Shown here: piece after piece, positions 14,034-31,806 of the stretch
Layout: each line of letters starts with the position of its first letter
Numbering within the stretch: position 1 is the stretch's first letter
Assembly (NCBI GenBank): GCA_003116875.1
Contig: BCKT01000005.1
Location: forward strand, 1,674,001-1,738,000
Reading direction: 5' to 3'
Source of the DNA: Takashimella koratensis
Lineage: Eukaryota > Basidiomycota > Tremellomycetes > Trichosporonales > Tetragoniomycetaceae
DNA: 64,000 bases
Position numbers and translations under genes: made by a program
The notes under the pieces: model-generated
What the model was told of the DNA's origin: nothing
Seen by the model: the letters and a program-made list of their open reading frames with translations, nothing else
Databases searched by the model: none

Positions 14034-16523
14034 CTACGCATCAACATCAAGCAAAGTCAAGATCTCTCCCAACTTGGCATGAATCTCGAAATGACCTCTG
14101 ACGACACTACTCATATCCACATCCTCCACTCCAGGCTGATGTACGGGACCTAGTCCAGCCACTTGAATCCCACTGTTCCCTACCGCGGCACGGGAGACGA
14201 CTTCGTGAAGCCGGACGACACCGGCAAGGACGAGGTCAGCGTCGGCCCATCCGTTTGTCAAGCGGCGAGCGACGACGGAACGCGCACGAGCCCATTCGGA
14301 GGCGGTTGGTGAGGATGGGAGGGAGATTAGGTGGGCAGACTCGACGTGCGTCTGGAGAGGGGTCGGGAGGGTGGAGAGGTACAGAAGAGCGTGGAGGACG
14401 GTGAGAGCGCCGACGGAGGAGCCGATCTGCAAAGTGGATCAGTAAGGCTATATCTGGGATAGGGAGGATTGAGACGACTTGCCAGAATGACCGGGCGTTC
14501 CCCTTGGACACGCTTCTCAATGACCTCGCCAAGCAGTCGACCAGCTTTGACAGCACGATCCTGTGCGTGCATCCAAGTGTTATCGAGTGTCATCGTCGCC
14601 ATGGAATAGACGGACCTACGCTCTGTGTCAGTGATGACTCATGCCCTTGTATGAAGCCTAGTAAGGCCAAGTAAAGGTAGCTCACAAAGGGAGAGCGACA
14701 GCAGCGTAGTATGCACTGAGAACGGTGCGCTTGATGATCTCCTTCTTGACGTAGCCCTTCAACTTGCTCGCGACTGTACGAGGTCACAAGTCATTGATCA
14801 GCTCTCTTAGACGCCGTAACTGGTGGAGCTGAGCGTTGACTCACCCCAGAAGTCGACGTCGCGACCAGTCTTGAGCATCGCCGCAGTTTCGTACCGTAGC
14901 AGATACACGTCTCGACCGTCTTTCAAACCGGTCTTGGTCCCAGTCGTCGGTGCTTCAACAAGGGCATTCTCCTCCTTAACCTCCTTTGCTTCTTTGTCTT
15001 TTGTCTCCAGCCCACTGCCCTCCTTTACCGGCTCGCTGCTGATACCGAGGCCTGTGACGGCTGCTCGCGGCTTGTAACTCTTGGGCGGTGCGTTATCCGC
15101 ACACAGCGCACGCCATGCAGTGATAGCTTCCGTCTTTGAAACGCTGAGAAGACCGGGGACGACGATGGTCGCGGTTAGACTCGGAGGCTTCGATGACTCG
15201 GCGATAGCCTTCTCATCCCTCCCCGAAGCGGTGTCAAGGGACGCACGAGGCGAGCCGGCGACCGTAGGTGACGCGGAAGGTGTTGTTGCTGCGGAAATAC
15301 TGGCTCGAGTACCTGCTTCCAAGCTGAGAGCGAGAAGCTTCGCCTCCAGTTCCACTCGGGCGGCGTCGACATCATTCTGCGCATCGGCGTCGGTATGTTC
15401 CTTCTCCTCTGGACTAGCAACAGCAGTCGTACTCGATGTCTCGGTAACCTTGCTGTCCTTCTCATCGATCGATAACTTCGCTACACCCTCCTCCGCCTCC
15501 TTGCGCTTCTGCGCTGCCTGCTCCTCCTCGCGCTTCTTGATATCCCTCCTCGCGGCGTTCAAATCATCAATCTCCTCTTTCGTCGCTCTGGTGCCTGCTC
15601 CAATCTCGACAAACCCAAACTCGTCCACACCGCGCCACCGCTCACGTACGCGTCGACCGGCCAGACCTCCACCGCCGACGCCGAAGAGGGTACCGAGAAC
15701 AACGGGCGCGGCGCCGGCAGACAGGATGGAGCCGATACCCAATGGAGCGAGGACGGCGGCGATGGCAGGTGCGGCGAGACCTCCGGTGACTCCAAGCAGC
15801 ACGCCACCAGCGATGACACCGGCACCAGTTGCTGTAAGTAGGCAAAGTCAGCCAAGAACGCCAAGACCAGCAGCAGCGGTTGTGGCCGGATCTCCACTCA
15901 CCAAGGGATCGCCCAAGGGACCCGCCCCAGCCTTGGCTATGGGCCGCGCGCGTCGATTCAACCTTCTTATCGGCCTCTTCAGACGCCGCCTTGAGTGCTT
16001 TGAACAGCGTCGCGGACAGATTCTTCTCCGCAGCCGGAAGGATGTGCTCCACGTCCAAACCCAGCAAGAACAACGCTCGATGAGATGCTGCCCTTGCTTC
16101 GGCTGTGTACTTGATCATCTCCTCCTTCTTCTCCTTCTCCTTCACTCCCGCCGATGGGTCTGGCTTGTTCGATTCGGGCGTTAAGCTCGCTTCGACGAGT
16201 ACACCAGCCATCCGCGCCCGTTCGGTGTCGCTCCACTCCTCCCGCTGCGCATCCGCAGACAGACGCACGGCGTTCGGTTCAACATCGGTAGGTAGTACAG
16301 CTGGGTCGAGTTCGAGAAGCTTCAGGACGGCGGAGAACCAGTTTGAAAGCTGCTGCGGAGATTTGGGTGCGGTTGGAGCGGTGGATTTGGCGACGTTCGG
16401 AGCCGGTGCCGGGTAGGTTGGATGTAAAGTCGCGCTGAGCGCGGCGAGGCCGAGGAGGAGACGGATTGGGGAGGCCAGAGGGTCGGGTGGTTTGGGAAGG
16501 TCAGTGGCGAGCTTGTCAGACAT
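14034..16523 (-). CDS. DUF726 / TMCO4-type membrane-associated serine hydrolase-like protein
   Basis: Family of proteins with a glycine-rich transmembrane hairpin followed by an alpha/beta-hydrolase-like domain (human TMCO4, yeast Mil1/YFL034W). Starts MSDKLATDLPKPPDPLASPI. The hydrophobic hairpin follows (AGGVLLGVTGGLAAPAIAAV, then LGIGSILSAGAAPVVLG), then a Lys/Glu-rich coiled coil and Ser/Thr/Ala-rich disordered insert of about 130 residues. The hydrolase part begins at TIVVPGLLS, and a GSSVG motif (Gly-x-Ser-x-Gly) comes from the last exon. The intron before it (14427-14482) has a GC donor; only the GC-AG reading joins RPVIL to IGSSVGALT. Ends LGEILTLLDVDA. Yeast Mil1 is linked to AP-1 trafficking; extension to this protein is inference. 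Confidence 0.85.
14427..14482 (-). other. GC-AG intron in the DUF726 gene
   Basis: Donor GCAAGT, acceptor TTTGCAG, 56 nt. Splicing here makes VILIGSSVGALTVL, the conserved strand-nucleophile elbow. No GT donor nearby gives that frame. Confidence 0.8.
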
Positions 16524-16693
16524 GGTGAAGTAAGGATGGAGTGGATGGGGTGGAGTGGAAAGAAGTGAGATGGGTAGACTCAAATAGATAGATGCATGAA
16601 AATGGACGAAAATCGCGAGTGGAGCACCTCCACTCTTTGACGTCACTCAAAACTATCCGCAGATCGCCACTTCACCCTAAGTCCGTGCTCCTA

Positions 16694-17267
16694 CTACAAG
16701 TCTGTACCTCCAGGCTTGCTCGCTTCCCACTCCATTTCACACCCAGTGGGTATCCAATCCATGGTACTACTGCTACGTGAAGAAAGGGCCCCAGGATTAG
16801 TTGCAGAGTTGGCTTGATCCCTGTTGACAGTCAATATGCCCAAGATCCCTGCGCATTCGAGCCACCCTTCGTTTCCACCAAACATCTCGCAATAACCAGG
16901 CGCTTGTTTGACTGTTTTGAGCAGCTCGCTGAGCGGAAGACGAAGAAGATAATCAGCTTTTTCCTTCGGGCAAGACGAGAAGTTCTGCACAATCTGCTGT
17001 GCAGTGACAAGCTCAGATGGAATCCCGAGCGAAGCTGTGAACGTGTTAGCTGACAACTGCGAGCCATTACGAAATTTGAATATGCGTGAAATGATCAAAC
17101 ATACTTAACGCTTCCGAAAAGTATCTTATCCCTAAATCGAGAGATCCGCTAGGATCATGAATTCTTTCTTTTACTGACTTCCTGTGCAAAACTTCGAGCT
17201 GACCTCCGAGGACTTCCAGCATATCTGATGCCTCGTCCGTCGTGAAAGGGTTGGTGATTGTCGACAT
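16694..17267 (-). CDS. Tandem array gene 1 (unknown helical 'WFF' family), single module
   Basis: Not recognised. Two exons, 17105-17267 and 16694-17034; donor GTATGT, branch CTAAC, acceptor TTCACAG, intron phase 1. About 167 residues. Exon 1 (MSTITNPFTTDEASDMLEVL...) ends FSEALT; exon 2 has AQQIVQNF, LLRLPLSELLKTV and a C-terminal ECAGILGILTV before a Ser-rich tail with TMDWIP. It aligns by eye with the next gene over its full length, including the NPF near the start, the intron position and the M-D-W in the tail. No signal peptide or membrane segment is obvious. The family's Trp and second Phe are absent, so this is a divergent member. Confidence 0.6.
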
Positions 17268-17918
17268 TGTATATGATGGTCGGTTTGTGACCAGAAGTTA
17301 TCTCTTAGCTTCAGAAAGATTGGCAAAGAGACATGAGGGTGAGGCGAGAGAGGGAAAAGGCTCCCTACATATGCAAGAGCTAGGTGCTCTCCTTGCCCGT
17401 ACAGCTGTTGTCGCTCGTCGGCAAACGGTCAAAGGGAGCTAAGACATGACAAAAAAGGCAGGCATGAGAGTCGAGTATTCAGCAGATAAACCCACCGCTC
17501 TCGAAAGCAGCAGGCGCCTTCCCATATTGGCAGCCGATCCACCTGCCAATGGCGCGAGGATTCAAGTCAAAGGAGCGTACAATACGATCCCGAAAACCCC
17601 GATACTTGAAAAGGTTGGTGTAGGTGAGCGCAGCCCTTGGGTGCGACCCGTCTCCGACCCGACCATACTCTACGAGTACGAGTATCTGCTCATCAAACCT
17701 GACTGGGGGGATGCACATGCGGGTTTTACCTCATCGGTCGAGGATATTTGTTGACGCGAACCTCATCTTGTATTGGTTTGGAAACGATGCATAGAGCAGA
17801 CTCTGATTTGAAGCACGTGCGGATGAGTGCAAAAGCTGTGTCCGACACGTCTAACTGCGAAACACACTAAAGAAAACGCGGAAGCAAGTTGCAACACAGA
17901 AAGTATGTCCTGCCAACA
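17268..17918. other. Gap between array genes 1 and 2
   Basis: 651 bp. It must hold the promoter of array gene 1. Open frames on both strands (for example 17446-17754 +) have no recognisable content and no homology to the array module. I see nothing else. Confidence 0.4.
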
Positions 17919-18496
17919 TCACACGCTCATACAGGAAGGTTGCTTACAGCCTGGCTTGCCGCAGCTAGTCCAAGTCGGATGATGAAGCTTATTTACCTTG
18001 TCGTTATCGGTATTTTCCCAATCCATTGGGGTCGGGTCAATCGGCTGCTTGGACGCGGAGTCGGCTTGGGTGGTGGATTGTCCGCTCTGAGCGATCAACA
18101 TCCCAAGAATCAATCCGCTTTCCGCCCATGGCGCACATGTCGAAAAGTCATCGTCATCTTCAAATTCCCCCACAGCCTCGTTGGCGACTTGATCAAGTGG
18201 GATTCGAAGTAGATTCTTCATATTATCTACGGACTTCTTTTTAAAATGGCTTACAACTCTATCCACGGTCCAACCCGGGATTTTTGCACTCGCTGGCTCA
18301 TTTCAGCATAGGCGTTCCCTAACAGCAGCAGCTAGAACTTACTCAAGGCTTGCGAAAAAGACGTCTTCGCCTCAGTGAACGCATCAGTTGCATTTCCAGA
18401 AGTTCTCGTAGATACGTTGCTGTATAGCGTCTCCAGCTTGCTTCGCAAGTTGGATCCTATCTTTGATGCCGAATGTGAGAGGAAGGGGTTAGCCAT
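17919..18496 (-). CDS. Tandem array gene 2 (unknown 'WFF' family), single module
   Basis: Not recognised. Exons 18343-18496 and 17919-18292, phase-1 intron at the family position. Exon 1 starts MANPFLSHSASKIG and ends SFSQALT. Exon 2 begins SAKIPGW then TVDRVVSHF, NLLRIPLDQV, an acidic EFEDDDDF stretch and LILGMLIAQSGQ, ending with a PTPMDW-containing tail and four cysteines. Closest to array gene 1: shared NPF start, IP after the intron, LLR-I/L-PL and L-G-hydrophobic-L near the end. The acceptor was chosen because it restores this match; an earlier TTAG acceptor would run into a stop. A possible further intron after the DNDK codons could change the last 30 residues. Confidence 0.58.
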
Positions 18497-19232
18497 GGTG
18501 GGCAAAATATGTACTTTATAGAAATTGTTGAAGACGGTAGCGAAATAGCGAATGATATGCGATATCAGCGGCTTATGTATAGGCCTGACTGCCATGACAA
18601 GCGCTTGTATCACCCGGGTCATTGGGATCAAAGCTGATATCGAAATCGTATTGAAAGGTATTTCTAAACCGCCAAGCGCCCAGCTGAACAAAGGACTGAG
18701 CTTGTACGCCTGATGTGGCGGAGCTTGACAAGGAGCTGTGAAACGGGGAGCTGGCGACGTGTGTAAGGAGCGGCATCGATAAAGGAATGCACGAGCATGC
18801 CCCGAGCCGAGGCGGGATTTTCCAGCGGCGTGGGGATGGTCAATACAAAGCGGTGTGCGAAAAGGGGATAGCGAGAGACCAAAAGAAGGCGTACATAAAG
18901 GATCCGCCGCCACGCCTTGAGGCTACCCGTCGGCTGAAGGAAAGCGGTCGAGTTGCTCGGGTGACCTACTCCGTTGACAGTCACAGTATCTACTCCGCTG
19001 TGGGCCGTGTTCTAGCAGAGCAAGTGATAACAATAACTTTTGGGGGGTTCAACTATGTCGATCTCAGATAGCTTGGTGTCAGATGCATGTAGCGCTGGGA
19101 GTGATATACTTCTGCCTGGGGAAGAATCATAGCTCAGTTTTGATCGAACTGTCATAGGGAGTCTCTACCCAGGCCCCCCATCTCTGATACGAACAGGAAT
19201 ATCCGAAGTGTACTTCCCTGCTGTAGCGCTCA
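18497..19232. other. Gap between array genes 2 and 3
   Basis: 736 bp. Promoter of array gene 2 plus sequence with only unconvincing open frames (18664-18984 -, 18787-19071 +). Nothing supported. Confidence 0.4.
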
Positions 19233-19789
19233 CTAAGCAGTCTCCTGGACTCCCTCCATACTCTCCTCTGCATCGGTTGACGTGGCTGAGCGTTCAACGA
19301 TGCCCAAACCATCCCCGTATCGATACTGAATCGAGCCCATCAACTGCAAAGCTCTCGGTCAAGTCTCATTGTAAGACATCAACTTGATAGGTAGAATGCA
19401 GCTCTGGGGGAGCTCGTTGGGATTCTCTTTGATACATTCGCGCAACGTCTCCTGTAGGTCCTCGGTTGGAGTGTTGGTGAACGTCTCATAATCTTTATCG
19501 TTCCACTCGTCGAAGAAAGGCCCGATTGTCTTCCAGGATGTCTGAGGAGCGCCTGACACATCTTCATAGTTTTAGCAGAGTGATTCAGCATCGGAGACTC
19601 ACCAGAGGCAAAGTCGAAGCACTCTGTCGCTAACATCATCATGGCACTTGCCGCTGCCAAGCGCTGATCAATTGCGTCTACCTTTTGCTGCAGAAACTTT
19701 ACTAGCGTCCTGCCAGCAGTTTGGGTCAAGGGGGAGCTGGACCAAAGTGGGCTCGGTTGAGCGAACGAGTCAGCATCAGTTTCTGACAT
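19233..19789 (-). pseudogene. Tandem array gene 3 (unknown 'WFF' family) with an in-frame stop
   Basis: Exon 1 (MSETDADSFAQP... to FDFAS) and exon 2 are joined by a phase-1 intron with a GTGAGT donor. Exon 2 has the clearest family motif, SWKTIGPFFDEWNDKDYETF. The frame then hits TGA at 19359-19361 after LMSYNET, giving about 125 residues. The same frame continues open from PRALQLMGSI to a TAG at 19233-19235. That downstream piece matches the C-terminal helix of other members, such as FRIMGLILMRA in array gene 4b. I therefore read the TGA as a nonsense mutation in a once longer protein; the shorter product may still be made. An upstream Met at 19846 is an alternative start. Confidence 0.6.
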
Positions 19790-20552
19790 GTGGTGGAGTA
19801 CGAAGATGTTGGACAAGTGTCTTAAGACCAATATCAAGAGCTTCAAGTCTCAGTACAGGCGGACAGCGATGGGTGGTACTGGATGGGTAGCTGGAATATG
19901 GATGGGGACAGTCTTTGGGTAGTTTAGCGACCGTCATATAGCCTGCGTGCTCTGATCCTGACTGTTGCCGTAGTGAGAGACCGCTTCCAAACGGCTGTCG
20001 ATCTTGATGTCACCAACTCGAAAGGATTCAGTCAAGACCGGATCACCGTCAATAGAGCACCATACCCAAAAGGCAGCTTTTGTAGCCCAGATTTACAAGT
20101 ACAAAGGCAGAAAATGGGAAAACATCCTCCCTTTGAAACTTCCTAAGCGCTCGCTGTGAAAAGAAAGTGGTTGCGGCTAGTAAAGAAAGGAATTTGATCC
20201 TTTGATATTGTCAAGAATGAACTGTCATGAGACTTGCCTTATCGCTGTTGTTGGTATGTGGGACCGTACAGCTACTCGTAGGCCTGTGTAAACAATTTGG
20301 CCTGAGCCGCCAATGAGCACGATAGGGTTATCTCATCGCAGCTTTGAACTATGGACACGTATTTCTCCAGTCAGGCAGTGGAAGATTTCCCCCTGTAGAT
20401 ATCCACGCTGTATTTCAATGGCGAGACCCGGACAGTATCGACGCTCACAAACACACCCCACCCATCGCCCAAAGTGTCTACTTCAGAAAAACTCTCCAAT
20501 ACGCTCTCCTTGAAAGGTGTCCACATCAGGCAATGTACCGTTTACCTGATCA
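19790..20552. other. Gap between array genes 3 and 4
   Basis: 763 bp, A/T-richer in the middle. Open frames at 20313-20592 (+) show no domain. No array module found on either strand by eye. Nothing supported. Confidence 0.4.
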
Positions 20553-21172
20553 TCAGTTGTCTTCCATGTCCGAATTTTCCTGCGACTCGTGATCTCCCGC
20601 CATCACACAATCCTCCTGCTCCTCCTCCACCTTCATGTCCTTGACGGCATTGGTGACTGCGGCGAGAGTACAAGTTGTGTTCCTGCTTGTCTGTTCGTGA
20701 GCTCTCATCAGGATAAGACCCATGATCCTGAAACAGTTTGACAAGGTGTCGTCTTTCGATATTCTCTGAAGAGCGGTCTTGTACTCAGCTTCGACATTCA
20801 TATCAAAGCTGCTGGCTTTTTGTTCAAGCTCCTTCCGAATGTCACCGACGTCGTAGTCGCAAAATTCATACCATCTGTCGTCATTCCAGCCCGAAAAGAA
20901 AGGGGATACGACGCGCCAGATGTTTGAACTTCCGGAGTCGGCTGCACAAGTCATCAACTCATATTCTCTACTCCACTGGACTCACCTCCAGGAATTGGGA
21001 GGTCGTTAAAGACTTGGGCCCCCGTGTGAATCCCTGCGATGGCAGTACGAAGCCCGCCCTCCACGTCGTCCAGGATAGCTTCCAGGCATTCAATGGGGGT
21101 CCCTTCCGGCAATTTGCTTTGTTTTTGGTCCCAGCTGGACCCTCCAGCCTCCGTAGAGGTGCCGTCTTTCAT
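20553..21172 (-). CDS. Tandem array gene 4b (unknown 'WFF' family), second module of a probable two-module gene
   Basis: Exons 20986-21172 and 20553-20941; GTGAGT donor, TTGTGCAG acceptor, phase 1. Taken alone it starts MKDGTSTEAGGSS. Exon 1 is helical (CLEAILDDVEGGLRTAI). Exon 2 has the family motif IWRVVSPFFSGWNDDRWYEF, then KTALQRISKDDTL and FRIMGLILMRAHEQ, and an acidic tail. Upstream its frame stays open through 21241 and beyond into sequence homologous to the C-terminal half of module 4a (LLMRLSAYDPWMKVVRRM). This suggests that 4a and 4b are one two-module gene like array genes 5 and 6, split by a frame change. Confidence 0.6.
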
Positions 21173-21233
21173 ATCGATATCTTTCTGCACCCGAATGGTA
21201 CAGAGAGTACACGAGCTGTGTTTGGAGTGAAGG

Positions 21234-21670
21234 TCAGCCATTCGCCGCACCACCTTCATCCATGGGTCGTAAGCGGATAGACGCATCAAGAGTACTTCCG
21301 TATTTTTCGTGAACGGATCCCAACGGCTGCGCAATGCGTTTGTTTGTCCAAACTTCGCTCGCTTGACACACCGTGTAGGCGCAAACTTCTTCATAGTCTT
21401 CGTCCGTCCACCCGTCAAAGAAAGGGGTAATCATCTCCCAAGTGACACCCGTCTCGGTGAAGCCTTTTCCTTGAACCGTTAGTCACCATGACAAGTACAA
21501 TTGCTCTCACCCATCGCCATCTCAAAGTTTTGCACACAGAAAGTCGACTCGGCGCACAGAGAATCGGAACTTTGATCATCCTTCACGTCATCTGCGCCCT
21601 GGACAGTGTCTTCAAGTATCTGAAATATCTGGCCCCACCTATCGTCACCTGGCTCAGCTGGACTGGACAT
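21234..21670 (-). CDS. Tandem array gene 4a (unknown 'WFF' family), frame-broken first module
   Basis: Start MSSPAEPGDDRWGQIFQIL; phase-1 intron (GTGAGA donor, TTCAAG acceptor) at the family position; exon 2 reads VTWEMITPFFDGWTDEDYEEV. The frame ends at 21234 after LRPMDEGGAANG, which does not match the family. The overlapping frame reads TEVLLMRLSAYDPWMKVVRRMADLH, which does. So either a one-base frameshift has occurred near 21300-21340, or there is an unrecognised 43-nt intron with a weak GTGTCA donor. In the restored order the protein would continue straight into array gene 4b. Confidence 0.5.
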
Positions 21671-22569
21671 TGGATCGGTGACGGAGAGGTTGAGGCGAGG
21701 GGTCGCGATGTTGTCTGTGGTGAATGTCCAGGGTAAAGGGGATGTGGAAGACCAAATGTTGTTGTGGAAGGGTGAAATGTAAGTAACGTTTATGCGGGTG
21801 TGGGGCATATCAGTAGTGGTTGTCCTGAAGTCTACCGGGAGTAGTGAGAAAATTGGGGGCGGGGGTGAAGAGCGCAAGGGAGAAGGGCTGAGAGACCCCA
21901 GTTTTTGCCTTCACCTGACGCGCATTACAACGCTCTTACAAACAAAAAGGTTCGTCATGGGTGCTCCAATATTTTTAAAAGCCGAAGTTGTCTGGACCAA
22001 GTGAACTTGCTTTGACACGGGTCACTCCTTTGCAGTGTCTCACTGCTTGGAGAATGCTCGCACATTCTAGATGAGGACCCTATAGCGTCATGAGGCTTTA
22101 TGGTGGCGTGGAAAGCAAGACTTCAGTATCATTTGTAGGGGTGGCCTCATTCCATGCTACCCAGAGTGAGAACGCACAAGATTGCCTCCCACTGAAAATG
22201 AACAAGAATACAGAGATGAACGGCGAAACGCTGCTCGGCATAGCATAGAGCCCTCCCATGGCCCTTGCATCCGGAATGATCTTCACGATAATAAGTGCCA
22301 TCCATATTACATCCTCCAGCGCCCCGCTGAGACCGAGAATTGTGGTGTCGTTCGGGGTGTCCTCAATGTACTGTACGCGAGTGCTTGGTGGTATGTCAAA
22401 GATTCCATTCGTGTCAATCGCAAGGAATCTCCGCCTAGTCCGCGTTTGCGTCAATCTCCATTTCCCGACCCCGTACAGAAGGAAATCGCTGCAGACTGTC
22501 GATGTGCACCATGCCCTGCAAAGCTCCTCTCCACGCCGCGCTCGGCAGTATCTCTGAGAGTGGAGCAAC
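21671..22569. other. Gap between array genes 4 and 5, possible relic
   Basis: 899 bp. The minus-strand frame at 22098-22568 contains GALEDVIWMALIIVKIIPDA, which faintly resembles the C-terminal helix of the array module, but no WFF motif or exon 1 could be placed. I leave it uncalled; it could be a decayed copy. Confidence 0.3.
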
Positions 22570-23420
22570 TTAAGCGGCCAAAAGATCCTTCCCGATGTCG
22601 TAACTTTCTGTGAGAGTCTGTTTCATCTGCGTATCAGAGTGGCTGTCAAATTTCGCGTAGTGTTCTTGATTCCAGTCATCAAAGTAGGTGGAGAGGTCGT
22701 CCCATTTGAATGTTGCTGATGTTCCCGCTGTATCGAAAGTCAGATCCAGGTACCCTTGATCGAAGACTTACCACATGCCTTGTTCAACTTGACAACGGCG
22801 GCTTCGAAAGCGTGGCTGGTGCTGGTGAGTCCTTGAGTGGCGCTTTCCAGTTGCTTTTGGAGGATTGCGTTGAGGAGCTGCCCAGCAACCTCGGTGACAA
22901 CGTTTCCCTTGACCGTGGACTCAAGATCACTGGGAGCGGAACAGAAGAGAAAAGACGAAATGCTTTGCACCACAGCCATCCAGCTCTCATCGAAGGATGA
23001 GGTGTAAACGGAAAGCCTGACACGGCTGGTGAACTCTTTGCTCCTTTTGATCATGAACCGGCGCAGATTCTCTCCAGCAGCAGTGGGCTGGACCATCGCA
23101 AAGGCGTAGTACATCGGAGGAGTGAAGCTGAGGAAGTAAGGAAGCAGCTCATCCCAAGAGACTCGCTCCGCTTCATAGGCTAAGAATGTGATTAGCTCAG
23201 CTAGCGATTCGCAAGACTCACTGAGGTCGTCGAAGCTCTCTCTGGCCCACGAATACTCATTCAAAGCCTTTGCAGAACCTTTGTCGACTTGGAGAAGAAC
23301 GTTGCGTAAAATGGTTTGGAAATCTTGGCGCTCTCTTGCCAACTCCTCCTTGAACGAACCGTCGCTGGGAGAAGAAACGCTAAGACGGGTGTCCGACCTG
23401 TAATTGCTCACTTCAGCCAT
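22570..23420 (-). CDS. Tandem array gene 5 (unknown 'WFF' family), two modules
   Basis: Three exons. Start MAEVSNYRSDTRLSV. The first intron (near 23176-23221, in-frame length, so easily missed) follows ESFDDL; exon 2 starts with YEAERVSWDELLPYFLSF, the module-1 motif. The same exon continues with SVYTSSFDESWMAVVQSI (module-1 C-terminal helix) and then a new helical segment (LLNAILQKQLESATQGL). The second phase-1 intron follows NKAC. The last exon begins AGTSATFKWDDLSTYFDDW, the module-2 motif, and ends YDIGKDLLAA with TAA at 22570-22572. Both introns sit at the same place within each module, which is the best evidence for an internal duplication. Function unknown; no signal peptide. Confidence 0.65.
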
Positions 23421-24260
23421 CTGAGATGAGGTGAATGCCGAGAAGATAAGAGTATGGCAGAGGGTGTGTGATATGCGCAAAAGCAATGTGGAACGGGGGT
23501 TCCAAGAGAAGAGAAAAAGTACAGCCCTGACAATGTTTTCGGACGAGCAACAAGAGGTAAGAAGGGGGTGTACAGTACAACACACCGGGCACTGCCATTG
23601 ATGGCGTGCTCACCGCACTTGCGCTCCACAACAGAAAGGAGGGTATGGACCAGCTTAGCTGTCCACGAGAACAAAGGTCAAAATGTACTCTCCTTGATGA
23701 GAGTTTACGCTTCATTGAGAGTGCCATTTGCTGGCGGGAGAGCTGCTGGAAGTTTTATGGACAGGCGATCAGTACAGCCACCAACGACTTTATACCGTCA
23801 CAAGACTCCACCAGCCCTACTCCTGGGTGTGTCGTTTAGAGAACCAATTTGTGTTCAACCCGCAAGCACCGTGAAGCGGGGAGAGGCTACCAGTACCATG
23901 TTCGCAATCACCAGTCGTTCGTTCGATGGGGCAAGGTACAAGGCAGCTGGTTAGCGTTCACGATAAGCGTGTTAAAAAGTCGACGTGAGCCAAGGAGACA
24001 TCTTGCATTCAAAAGGAAAACGTCACAAGAGGATACATGTGGCGCGCCCCAGCCTTCAGGTGACAACTTATTCCATCACTCAACTCCTCGGAATAACGAC
24101 AATCCGAGAGATGAACCTGCTCTCCCTCAATGCTCATCCTCTACCTTCACCAGCTTCACCTTCCCCACAGTATCAGTAGCCGATTGACAGTTTGAAGCAA
24201 GGAGTGTCTGGCCTTATTCGACGACTTCGACCTTTATCACATTTGACATGTCGTCCCCTG
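23421..24260. other. Gap between array genes 5 and 6
   Basis: 840 bp. Promoter of array gene 5 and the 3' flank of gene 6. Plus-strand frames at 23568-24187 are open but featureless. Nothing supported. Confidence 0.4.
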
Positions 24261-25182
24261 TTACTTCGTGTCGGCCTCCTGGGCGAGATGACGGTACATC
24301 CAAAGAGGCCCCATTGTGAGGAACGCGCTCGTCAGATCGGCGGTTCGAGCGATTGTGTCAAGGGCGGCAGCCCGAGTGTTGTTGGGGCCTTCGCGAAGCT
24401 TGGATGCTTCTGATTCGAGCATGGCCACGCATTTGTCGGGTTCTTCGGCGTAGAGCTCGTGCTTGTCCGCATCCCAACCGTTGAAGAAGCCAGAGAAGAC
24501 CGTCGTCCACTCGATCTGGCTGTGAAGGCGGGCTAATGAGTAGTTCAGTACGTCTAACTTTCGATATACTCACACATCTGGTATTCGAATATCTCGAGCG
24601 CGTCCCCGTACGCTGAAACTGCCGACTTGTCCGCCAGGCATTCGTCAAGGAGTCCAACCAGCTCCTGACCCACGCCCTCGGGACTTTTCTCTTCACTCTG
24701 TTCTTCGTTTGAAGGGGACGAGTCACCGTCTGATTCCATCTCGTACTGCCTCTCATGCCAGCGCGCAGCGCACCCGTGGTGTTTGTCTTTGACTTGGGTC
24801 ATGAGGTAGATCGCTTCCGTCAGGTCCTGGGTGTTGGCAATGTTCATCACTCTTGTCCTGAATTCCTGGCTCCATTCGTCATTCGAGACAATCTTCGATG
24901 CTGAGCTTTTCAAAATGCCTTTTGCATGAGCAGCCGAGAGAATCGGGTTTTTCCCGAGTGCGTCCTTGACAGTCATCCAAGGTACATCATAGCCGATGAG
25001 TTCTTTTAAATGTTGTCAGCTCAGCCGGCAATTGTTGCCTCACTCATCGTCTCATCGAACTCCGTCTCGGCTTTCGAGATTTCTTGGCATTCTTCGTACA
25101 CTAATGTATGATCCTTGTCCACACTCGCCTGGAGATAGGCTTTCAGAGCCCGGCAAGCTTTCTCCACGTTGTGGCTGGACAT
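24261..25182 (-). CDS. Tandem array gene 6 (unknown 'WFF' family), two modules
   Basis: Three exons. Exon 1 starts MSSHNVEKACRALKAYLQ and ends FDETM; a phase-1 intron (GTGAGG donor, TTAAAAG acceptor) leads to KLIGYDVPWMTVKDAL, a divergent module 1 with EAIYLMTQVKDKH as its C-terminal helix. An acidic Ser/Glu linker follows, then helical GQELVGLLDECL and ALEIFEYQ. The second intron (24534-24575 region; best read as phase 2) leads to IEWTTVFSGFFNGWDADKHE, the module-2 motif, and LTSAFLTMGPLWMYRHLAQEADTK before TAA at 24261-24263. Function unknown. The promoter contains a 17-G homopolymer. Confidence 0.62.
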
Positions 25183-25795
25183 GGAAAAAACTTGGGCTTT
25201 CGCGGGAGATGAAGAGAACGATGTTGAGTACGAGATAAAGCTGTAGGTCTGCGCGGGTGTGGAATGACGGGTAGGTATGCTTCTGAGTTGTGTGTTTGGA
25301 GAAGGGGAATGAAGCGTAATTTGAGCTGGAGGGGGGGGGGGGGGGGGACGCATGAACCATGGACAGAGAGACTTAGCCTCAGAGAGGGATTGCGTGCTCG
25401 CTCAAATCGAAGTCTTGAGAAATTCAGACAGAAAGGTTCGCAGGCAGCAAGCGCGTAGTCACTCCAAAAAACCTGCAAAGTCTGAATCCAGCAACGTTTC
25501 CTCAACATGTGACTCTCCTTTCAACTTCTCCTGAAGGGTTTAAAAAAATGGACCGAGGTGAAAGACCAGAGGACTAACGCTGATTTGAGCAAACATGCGT
25601 GGAGCTGAAGCTCAAAGTTCGAGTTTGAAGACCTCAAAAGAGTGTGGCCTAACCCCCAGAGCTCAGAAGTCGTACCAGAGGTTTGTTCAAGAGCAGGCAA
25701 TGTGTCTGTAGGAGAGAGAGGGTGAGTGCAATGGTGTTCATGATCAGGGGTATACAGTACGAAGCAAGTAAGTACTACAAGGCACTATTCAATCC
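25183..25795. other. Gap between array gene 6 and the secreted-protein cluster
   Basis: 613 bp marking the border of the two tandem arrays. It holds the array gene 6 promoter (with the G tract) and the 3' flank of the first barrel protein. No gene seen. Confidence 0.45.
25331..25347. repeat. Homopolymer of 17 G
   Basis: Seventeen consecutive G on the plus strand, about 150 bp upstream of the start of array gene 6. Length is likely to vary between isolates and could be a sequencing or assembly weak point. Confidence 0.9.
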
Positions 25796-26939
25796 TCAAG
25801 TGCAGCTAGGGACAGCACCATTCATGGTACAAGTATTGCACGTGTCAAGTACAACCCATGCTGAATAAATGGCGTGCGTCAGCTAGGGTCACGGACGTGT
25901 TGCAGATACCCAGAGTCACTTACCTGTACCGACGTTGTTGCATTGCTGGAGGACGTTTCCAGCACACTGGTAGGATCCACCAGTACAGGTACCACCGCTC
26001 GTGACTACTGTGGGGCCGGCTGATGCAGGTGCAGATTGTGATGATGACGCTGCTCCTGGTGACTGAACGGCACCGTATGCAAACGAGGTGGATTGGGGAG
26101 TGAGAGGCTGAGCGCTTTCCGGATTGATGATCTGGTTATCAACGACTTGAACTTTGAGGCCCGAGGCATTCGCGTCGCAACTTCCTGCAACTGCGATCAA
26201 CCCAAGAGCTAGAAGGGATGAATCACGGTCAACGATGATACTATGATGCACTGATGAGGGGCAGTCATCATATTCACCTGACATATCAACAATTGGAGCT
26301 TCCGAAGCCGCCTCGCAGCCGTCCCATAGATAGAATGGACCTTCATCCAAGACTTTTTGGTTCCCGGCGGAATCGAAGATCAGGACCCTGTTGATGATTT
26401 AGTGCGATGTGGATGAAGTCAAAAATAACCTTGCTGTTACTTACTCTTTGCCACACCAATACGGCAGAAGCTCCTTGTTTGCCTCGTAGCCTCCGAGGAG
26501 GTTGTAGTTCAGAGCTAAGACAGGGAGTATGATGTATAACATGTGGATGCAGGGGGTGGAGAGCGATCACTGAGCTCACCAACGATACGACTGGTGCCAA
26601 TGTCGCTCATCGTGTCGCCGGAATAATAGGAACACTCGGGAACTCCCAAATTAGCGTTGGCAGACCATCCCTTCTGTTCCATGGCTCCTGATGTGGCACA
26701 CACATCATTCGAACTCGTCTCGGTTACATCATAGTATCTAATTTTGTCAGTGGTCTTGTCCAATGGTAGGGTACTGTTTCAGACACAGCTTACACAGTAC
26801 CGTCGGCATCGTCTATCTCGAAGAGAACGGCGCCAGAGCCGGCGCGAGGAGTGAGTGTGTTGTTAGCGAACGTGGGTGTTGGATTGGGAAGGGCATATCC
26901 CGAGACAGCGAGATGCAACAAGAGCGCCAGCGCAAACAT
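25796..26939 (-). CDS. Secreted double-psi beta-barrel (RlpA/expansin-like) protein with C-terminal Cys module, copy 1
   Basis: Five to six exons. N-terminal signal peptide (MFALALLLHLAVSGYALPNP). The barrel domain runs from TVYYDVTETSSNDVC through GWSANANLGVPECSYYSG, SRIVGALN, LLPYWCGKE and DEGPFYLWDGCEAA to VDMSG and GSCDANASGLKVQVVD, the usual strand order of DPBB proteins (plant barwin/expansin, fungal secreted inhibitors). A short Ser/Ala linker leads to a cysteine module, CTGGSYQCAGNVLQQC, and the last exon adds WVVLDTCNTCTMNGAVPSCT. This resembles small chitin/glucan-binding modules, but I cannot name the family. Probably an extracellular or wall protein. The last exon is found because a GTAAGT donor follows NNVGT and the spliced ending repeats in copies 2 and 3. 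Confidence 0.78.
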
Positions 26940-29015: not shown

Positions 29016-30296
29016 TTACTCGCAGTCAACGCTACCAGTGTCCGTAAAGCTGCACGTTGTCTCGCAGGTGGTGATGGTCTCCCAAGCTGCGTCACACTGT
29101 CAGCACCTGTATCTATATCGGTGACGCTCGACACGACTTACCTAGGCTCGTCGTCGAGACGTAGTTGCAAACTTGCAAGGTGAGACCGTTACACTGCCAT
29201 GTGCCGTAGGTGCATGATGAGCCGGAGTCGAGGGACACGCTGGCCGAAGGAGCAGAAGAGGAGGTGGATGTTGGTGCAGTTGTTGATGTGGTCGGGGCGG
29301 AGACAGTGGAACTGGATGTGGGAGAAGAGGAGGTTGTCGAAGCGACGAGAACTCGGACGTTGTCAAGTGTATCCGTCCCAGCTGCGGACGAGGAGGACCA
29401 CCACGAACTAGTCCCACGGATGGAGTACGAGCTCAAGGTAGACGAAGGCGCAACCGCTGCTGGAGACGACGAGGTGGACGGTGTTGCAGTCGCAGTCGCA
29501 GTCGCCCCGCTACCACCCGTGATCGTGCCCGAGGGTGAAACGTTGGTGTCGAGAACCTTGACAGTGAGACCGCTGGGGTTGTTGCCTGAACATGTCCCGC
29601 CTTTGATTTGAGTAAACGCTTTCGCGGAGAAATCGACCTTGACCTCAATCGCACATTCCGCGCAAGCATCGTAGACGACGAAAGGACCCTCGTCGAGCAC
29701 GATCTCGTTTCCGTCCGAATCCCACACCTGAACCCTGGGCACGAGTCAGTATTGACCGGTGGATATTTTCATCGCGCAGTCACTCACTCTTTACCACACC
29801 AGTAGGTGGGATCGGATTTGACCATTGTCGCGTTCAAGGCTGCGTAAGAGGGGTGGAATCAGCATTCGTCGCAGTGGAAAGGCGTTTGATGGGTGGGAAG
29901 CAAAGGAGGGTTTGACGCGTGAGTGTGACGGTTTCGGTGGTAGCCAACTCACCAACGATGCGGTTGCTCCCAAGGCTTTCAAGAGTGTAGGCAGTGGCGT
30001 CCGAGCCCTGGCAGTAGGTGACACCTCCGTTGATACCCGACGTGATTGCCCAGTTGGCGACATCGGGTCCGCCGTTCTCGACCGAGCAGACATCGATTCC
30101 GATCTCCTCGTCGAGGTCGTAGTAGCTGGGCGGGGTTAGTTGAGACGCACATGATGTGTCGAGATCGCAGATCCCCCATGATCCACGCGATGCGAGATAC
30201 TTACAAGGTGCCAGTGACATCTTGAAGGTCGAGAACGACGGTTTGGGCGCGAGCGAGAGCGGCCAAGAGAAGGAGAGTGAAAGAGGTGGCAAGCAT
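29016..30296 (-). CDS. Secreted double-psi beta-barrel protein with long Ser/Thr linker, copy 3
   Basis: Signal peptide MLATSFTLLLLAALARAQT, then barrel domain TLYYDLDEEIGIDVC, SRIVGALN, YWCGKE, DEGPFVVYDACAECAIEV, VDFSAKAFTQIKGGTC and GLTVKVLD. This copy keeps the most typical DPBB signature (DAC-x-x-C ... D-x-S-x-x-A-F). The linker is much longer than in copies 1 and 2, rich in Ser/Thr/Ala and probably O-mannosylated, about 110 residues. The C-terminal module is CTYGTWQCNGLTLQVC, completed by a last exon WETITTCETTCSFTDTGSVDCE after a GTAAGT intron. TAA at 29016-29018. More diverged than the other two, so an older duplicate. Confidence 0.8.
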
Positions 30297-31206: not shown

Positions 31207-31806
31207 ATGGCCGCCCCCGAACCCGGACACGCAGCGCCAAGCGTCGACACTCCCACCTCGTTTCCTGGCACCCCTGACAACGCGTCCCCAATCATCTACC
31301 GCCGCGCAACCACTGCGGACGCTTCGGCCGTTGCCTCTCTCATTGGTCGAGTGTGGTCCATGTTCTTCGGCTACTCGGTTTCCCCGTCGGACCTCGAAAC
31401 GTACCTCACCACGACTCTCTCCCCCGAACAGCTCGAGCGGGATATTGCCAATCCCCGACTCCGGTTCCTGGTTGCTGTCACCACGGTGGACAATGCAATC
31501 GTCGGTGTTGCTCAGCTCGTCACGAAATCTACAGAACCGTGCCTCACATTGCCATCACCAATCGAGTTGCAACGGTTATATGTGTCGGAGACACTGCACG
31601 GACGCGGCGTAGCCAACGCGTTGATAAAAGGGTCCGAGGAGATTGGCAAGGAGGAAGGCTGCGAGTCGATGTGGCTGGGAGTTTGGGAGGACAACCCGAA
31701 GGCGCAAAGATTCTACACCAAGATGGGGTTCAAGACGGTTGGAGAGCACAAGTTCTTGGTGGGCGAGTCGGTCAGGCGGGACTGGATTATGGAGAAGAGC
31801 ATATAG
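31207..31806 (+). CDS. GNAT-family N-acetyltransferase
   Basis: Intronless, 199 residues, unusual here where nearly all genes are split. Starts MAAPEPGHAAPSVDTPTSFP; the GNAT fold begins at IIYRRATTADASAVASLI. Motif A, the acetyl-CoA pyrophosphate loop, is LYVSETLHGRGVANALI with the Gly-Arg-Gly-x-Ala core, and motif B is MWLGVWEDNPKAQRFYTKMGF. Similar fungal proteins are small-molecule or aminoglycoside-type acetyltransferases of unknown substrate. No membrane or targeting signal seen. Its stop at 31804-31806 is convergent with the DUF1348 gene. Confidence 0.88.
   Translation: MAAPEPGHAAPSVDTPTSFPGTPDNASPIIYRRATTADASAVASLIGRVWSMFFGYSVSPSDLETYLTTTLSPEQLERDIANPRLRFLVAVTTVDNAIVGVAQLVTKSTEPCLTLPSPIELQRLYVSETLHGRGVANALIKGSEEIGKEEGCESMWLGVWEDNPKAQRFYTKMGFKTVGEHKFLVGESVRRDWIMEKSI

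Follow-up and report, generated by a model that had tools for sequence, protein, structure and literature searches.

Nine copies of one helical module were found in six adjacent genes (g1 to g6) on the minus strand, at positions 16694-25182 of a stretch of Takashimella koratensis DNA of 64 000 nucleotides (contig BCKT01000005.1, 1,674,001-1,738,000; called the window, as a whole, in what follows). Modules carry the number of their gene (e.g. m1a and m1b in g1). We give about an even chance to the explanation that the array is an old tandem family, restricted to one lineage, which consists of intracellular helical interaction modules and is losing copies. Besides this fungus, only relatives that have not been sampled or can no longer be recognised would have it. 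The array would have been built by gene duplication and by the fusion of two modules within one gene, each module keeping its phase-1 intron between the first helices and the W..V..FF..W helix. Orphan (lineage-restricted) tandem gene families are a known kind, with one locus, a shared structure and both open and damaged copies. This family matched no library searched.

The genes were rebuilt as the first-pass annotation, made from the sequence alone, had described them (six minus-strand genes with nine modules), and the features that it reported (modules both single and double, copies that are broken, a shared gene structure) were all present (Table 1). Splice sites were picked by hand for an open frame, so all gene models are predictions. 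Two modules were counted in each of g1, g2 and g3 and one in each of g4, g5 and g6. Gene g1 is open (279 aa) and has two GT-AG introns of 41 nt, both in phase 1. Genes g5 (175 aa, with an uncertain C-terminal end) and g6 (172 aa) are also open. The g2 product has 254 aa and its second module is truncated by a TAA at 22572-22570. A module consists of a helical exon, a phase-1 intron and an exon which, in the five clearest copies, contains the motif W-x-x-[VIL]-x-x-[FY]-F-x-x-W. All nine module introns are GT-AG introns of 41-55 nt (41, 41, 42, 44, 41, 44, 41, 50 and 55 nt). As modelled, eight of the nine are in phase 1, as had been noted before. The exception, the second g3 intron, prints as phase 2 because of the frame change in the first module of that gene; with the downstream exon setting the frame, it is in phase 1 as well, and the array is then more uniform still (9/9). 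The first g2 intron (23180-23221, 42 nt) is in frame and free of stops (open frame 22740-23609), and its retention would yield an isoform with 14 additional residues.

Table 1. Predicted genes of the array and positions of the five clear core motifs
Feature	Position	Strand	Exons or first W	Remarks
g1	24261..25182	(-)	25182-25044, 25002-24574, 24532-24261	double module
g2	22570..23420	(-)	23420-23222, 23179-22772, 22727-22570	double module
g3	20553..21670	(-)	21670-21511, 21469-20986, 20941-20553	double module; frame switch in first module
g4	19233..19789	(-)	19789-19603, 19561-19233	single module; TGA in frame
g5	17919..18496	(-)	18496-18343, 18292-17919	single module
g6	16694..17267	(-)	17267-17105, 17049-16694	single module
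core motif m1b	24474..24509	(-)	W at 24509	12 residues, one extra
core motif m2b	22672..22704	(-)	W at 22704	
core motif m3a	21408..21440	(-)	W at 21440	
core motif m3b	20886..20918	(-)	W at 20918	
core motif m4	19503..19535	(-)	W at 19535	

The motif had been described for the modules in general. It was clear in the five copies of Table 1 and partial in m2a and m1a, where the first W is kept and the second W is lost; in m5 and m6 it is much weaker. The motif W lies 7-10 residues past the split codon in eight copies, m6 being without a W there, and an F lies 4-5 residues ahead of the split codon in 7/9 modules. Written as a 33-base DNA pattern, the core occurs seven times in the 25.1-Mb genome of 24 contigs (four in the array and three outside), against 16 occurrences of the reversed control. 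The pattern was derived from the array copies, and therefore only its rarity elsewhere is informative. A broader DNA pattern of the motif was discarded as too common (276 matches vs 251 in the control).

Common descent of the modules was assessed by leave-one-out scoring, in which each module was compared with a profile of the other eight and with 2000 shuffles of itself (module ends were chosen by hand and the shuffles do not preserve helical patterning). Eight of the nine modules outscored all of their shuffles. The scores were 16.3 bits for m1a, 24.0 for m1b, 16.2 for m2a, 35.8 for m2b, 31.4 for m3a, 33.0 for m3b and 41.0 for m4; m5 reached 7.1 bits, barely above its best shuffle (6.9). The eight-module profile failed to recover m6 (-0.6 bits, 153/2000 shuffles as good). 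With exon 1 alone, i.e. without the W motif, fewer than 6% of 1000 shuffles were as good for 7/9 modules; the same comparison failed for m1b (439/1000 as good) and m6 (435/1000). In pairwise comparison, 14 of 36 module pairs exceeded 3 bits and the best was m3b-m4 (23.3 bits). The pair m5-m6 scored 14.4 bits, and no pair of m5 or m6 with any of the other seven modules exceeded 3 bits. Because they pair together but with none of these seven, m5 and m6 form a separate branch, linked weakly to the rest by the m5 profile score and the shared gene structure.

The whole genome was queried with nine protein sequences, two to four candidates being scored per query, a depth at which remote copies elsewhere could be missed. 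Non-self matches were obtained from five of the nine queries and every one lay inside the array (m3a to m3b, E 0.0057; m3b to m4, 0.0075; m3b to m3a, 0.0078; g4 to m2b, 0.015). Genes g5 and g6 were each other's sole non-self match (g5 to g6, E 1.2; g6 to g5, E 0.42), and the g1, g2, m1b and m2b queries matched only themselves. In the 64-kb window, the best profile match beyond the array had an E value of 0.35. The genes are adjacent paralogues of common descent, as in an orphan tandem family. Like such families, the array has one locus, one orientation, paralogues that share a structure, and open and damaged copies; no outside relatives emerged from the searches described below, which may miss fast-evolving ones. 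It differs from them in its internal module doubling, its fixed phase-1 intron and the almost complete disappearance of DNA similarity. The earlier view of a strongly diverged family with a kept gene structure is supported. Common descent can still be seen from the gene structure although DNA similarity has been lost almost completely.

The age of the copies was judged from DNA similarity and from substitutions in the core. Self-comparison of the DNA at 16001-26500 gave two short matches at E<=1. One, of 35 nt, is common to the m3a and m4 cores and is the sole match between modules; the other, of 25 nt, joins g3 to the neighbouring DUF726 side. Synonymous (pS) and replacement (pN) differences per site were calculated for the five clear modules over 17 codons of the core; to align them, m1b and m3b were each shortened by one codon. 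Values of pS were 0.53-1.06, near saturation, and values of pN were 0.19-0.45. In the comparison of dN/dS type that had been suggested between copies, pS was greater than pN in 10/10 module pairs, which are not independent of each other. The core is constrained in the five clear copies, the motif being maintained at the protein level. Because of the single 35-nt match between modules and the core pS, the duplications are considered old. The 'fast turnover' proposed in the first-pass annotation is not supported, the near-saturated core pS and the near absence of DNA similarity being those of old copies. Only the loss of copies may be recent.

Codon usage was scored against 17 training frames chosen by length (Pfam confirmed four of them and did not confirm two; a search for relatives confirmed one). 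Among the three forward frames, the proposed one scored highest in 17 of the 18 stretches, the exception being g5 exon 1. Over all six frames it was the best in only 10/18 stretches, with one tie. The signal was weak in g5 and g6.

Half of the genes (g2, g3 and g4) look damaged or cut short. In g4 a TGA stands in frame at 19361-19359. In g3 the core frame stops at 21236-21234 and a different frame leads into the second module. The tail in this other frame resembles the m3b tail (19/1000 shuffles as good), and its spacing from core to helix equals that of m3b and m4 (25-26 residues, hand count), which favours a short indel over an additional intron. Nine candidate introns could bridge the frame change. 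One of them, of 43 nt, has an ordinary length but would remove 13-14 residues of the module (hand count), and the change is therefore better explained by a frameshift or an error in the assembly. The defects of g3, g4 and g2 may all be sequencing or assembly errors. As continuations of the module, the stretches after the stops were weak at most in profile comparison (33/2000 shuffles as good for g4 and 113/2000 for g2). In pairwise comparison they gave no signal for g2 against g4 (770/1000 as good) or for g4 against three other tails (230-790/1000). Met followed by Asp or Glu was seen in six of nine acidic or Ser/Thr-rich tails (80/20000 shuffles as good, the tails being cut by hand and including post-stop and other-frame stretches), namely the tails of g5, g6, the first module of g1 and the second module of g3, and the post-stop tails of g2 and g4. 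This is only a lead. Met-Asp-Trp is common to the g5 and g6 tails.

A dispensable, mostly decaying family under weak constraint, having no recognition role, would account for the frame change of g3, the TGA of g4, the shortened module of g2 and the weak codon signal of g5 and g6. We regard this reading as rather unlikely in view of the excess of pS over pN in every core pair and of the long open frames of g1, g5 and g6.

Relatives were searched for in a set of 5.8 billion proteins. None was obtained at E<=1, either with the exon-2 alignment (0/69 candidates) or with the full-module alignment (0/2417). This search requires shared 5-residue words, misses fast-evolving relatives and may leave out near-host records; for exon 2, its length rule favours mainly short proteins. 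As a control, the same set was searched with a nearby acetyltransferase frame (31207-31803), for which 295 of 417 candidates were relatives. In the list of 120 of these, the best four with a name came from Cryptococcus sp., Saitozyma and two Kwoniella (49-54% identity), whereas proteins without a name reached 63% identity. This list probably includes no close named relative of the host. The set searched does contain Tremellales proteins. In Pfam, NCBIfam, PHROGs and PADLOC, no family matched more than one of the nine members. Weak matches, each touching 1/9 members, were rejected: eight families in Pfam (best ORC4_C, E 0.016), eight in NCBIfam (best E 0.0025), 11 in PHROGs (best E 0.023) and one in PADLOC (typeIV_Cas11, E 0.0028).

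A PDB sequence search with the g1 protein gave no match, and the 12 PDB matches of the full-module profile (E 0.061 upward) were not credible. The exon-2 profile matched PDB 7rdr (Circular tendon repeat protein, E 1.1e-8); this was rejected as a repeat artefact, no stretch being significant alone. In viral contigs, from which near-host records may be left out, 18 stretches fit the core pattern and none encodes a relative. No account of such a family was found in the literature, as judged by titles and the openings of abstracts. The family had been called unrecognised, and indeed no credible relative emerged from the four family libraries, the PDB, the viral contigs or the protein set, nor any credible profile match to a well-known domain in the libraries searched, although such searches miss relatives that evolve fast.

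These searches could have missed a known helical family of which the modules are a very divergent branch, short all-helical modules being hard to place and the protein search depending on shared words. This was judged quite improbable: the families of the four libraries match at most one member in nine, and the best Foldseek E value in the PDB was 2.5, obtained with a partial model. That model, of m3b exon 2 (128 residues, pLDDT 73.7, pTM 0.52), has five helices and no strand, and its fold search of the PDB returned nothing usable. The structure prediction that the first-pass annotation had recommended gave only this partial model, a second one being too poor for a fold search (pLDDT 51.4). 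The spacing W-x-x-[VIL]-x-x-aromatic-F resembles that of the BH1 helix of the Bcl-2 family. The BH1 motif has a glycine after the tryptophan. The modules differ at this position: the residue after the W is R, T, E, K, D, D and M in m3b, m1b, m3a, m4, m2b, m2a and m1a, respectively, and never glycine. Bcl-2 was also absent among the Pfam matches of the modules.

No transmembrane-like stretch was detected in g1, g2, g4, g5 or g6 (highest 19-residue Kyte-Doolittle mean 1.26). The hydropathy of these five genes agrees with the earlier statement that transmembrane spans are lacking. From the sequences and the partial model, the W..V..FF..W segment would be a packing or binding helix. On the simplest reading, the module would be a small all-helical intracellular adaptor for protein interactions. 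Its conserved helix would hold the fold or a common partner, and its remaining surfaces would differ from copy to copy.

An array for self/non-self recognition or genetic conflict (incompatibility, spore killing or defence against mobile elements), whose copies would diverge by chasing partners or opponents, was considered unlikely. The tandem position at one locus, the single and double modules, the strong divergence outside the core and the damaged copies beside open ones would all suit it. However, the duplications are old rather than recent, the constrained core is the reverse of an excess of amino-acid change, and no effector or recognition domain common to more than one of the nine members was found in the Pfam or PADLOC searches. 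The wtf spore-killer proteins of Schizosaccharomyces pombe span membranes and the wtf genes are scattered. The array resembles the wtf family in its multi-copy, diverged, lineage-restricted genes with broken members, but the five genes tested have no transmembrane-like stretch and the copies found sit in one array. A new protein family acting as a one-locus intracellular recognition repertoire was held to be quite improbable too; its single and double modules would each have a partner of their own, bound by the variable faces, with the W..V..FF..W helix keeping the fold together.

If the preferred reading, an old tandem family of interaction modules, is confirmed in sister species, the array would represent an unnamed protein family with a defined module and an intron marker. 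Its single locus could be deleted whole and its function asked directly. On the g6 side the array adjoins a DUF726 open frame (14810-15847, minus strand, E 2.7e-10). This gene probably starts near 16523 and is a useful anchor for the locus in relatives. At 25919-26398 and 29116-29745 (minus strand) lie two open frames that are paralogues of each other and match no Pfam family. Their VLDEGPF-containing stretch is identical at 18/42 positions and their cysteine-containing end at 14/25, and both products may be secreted.
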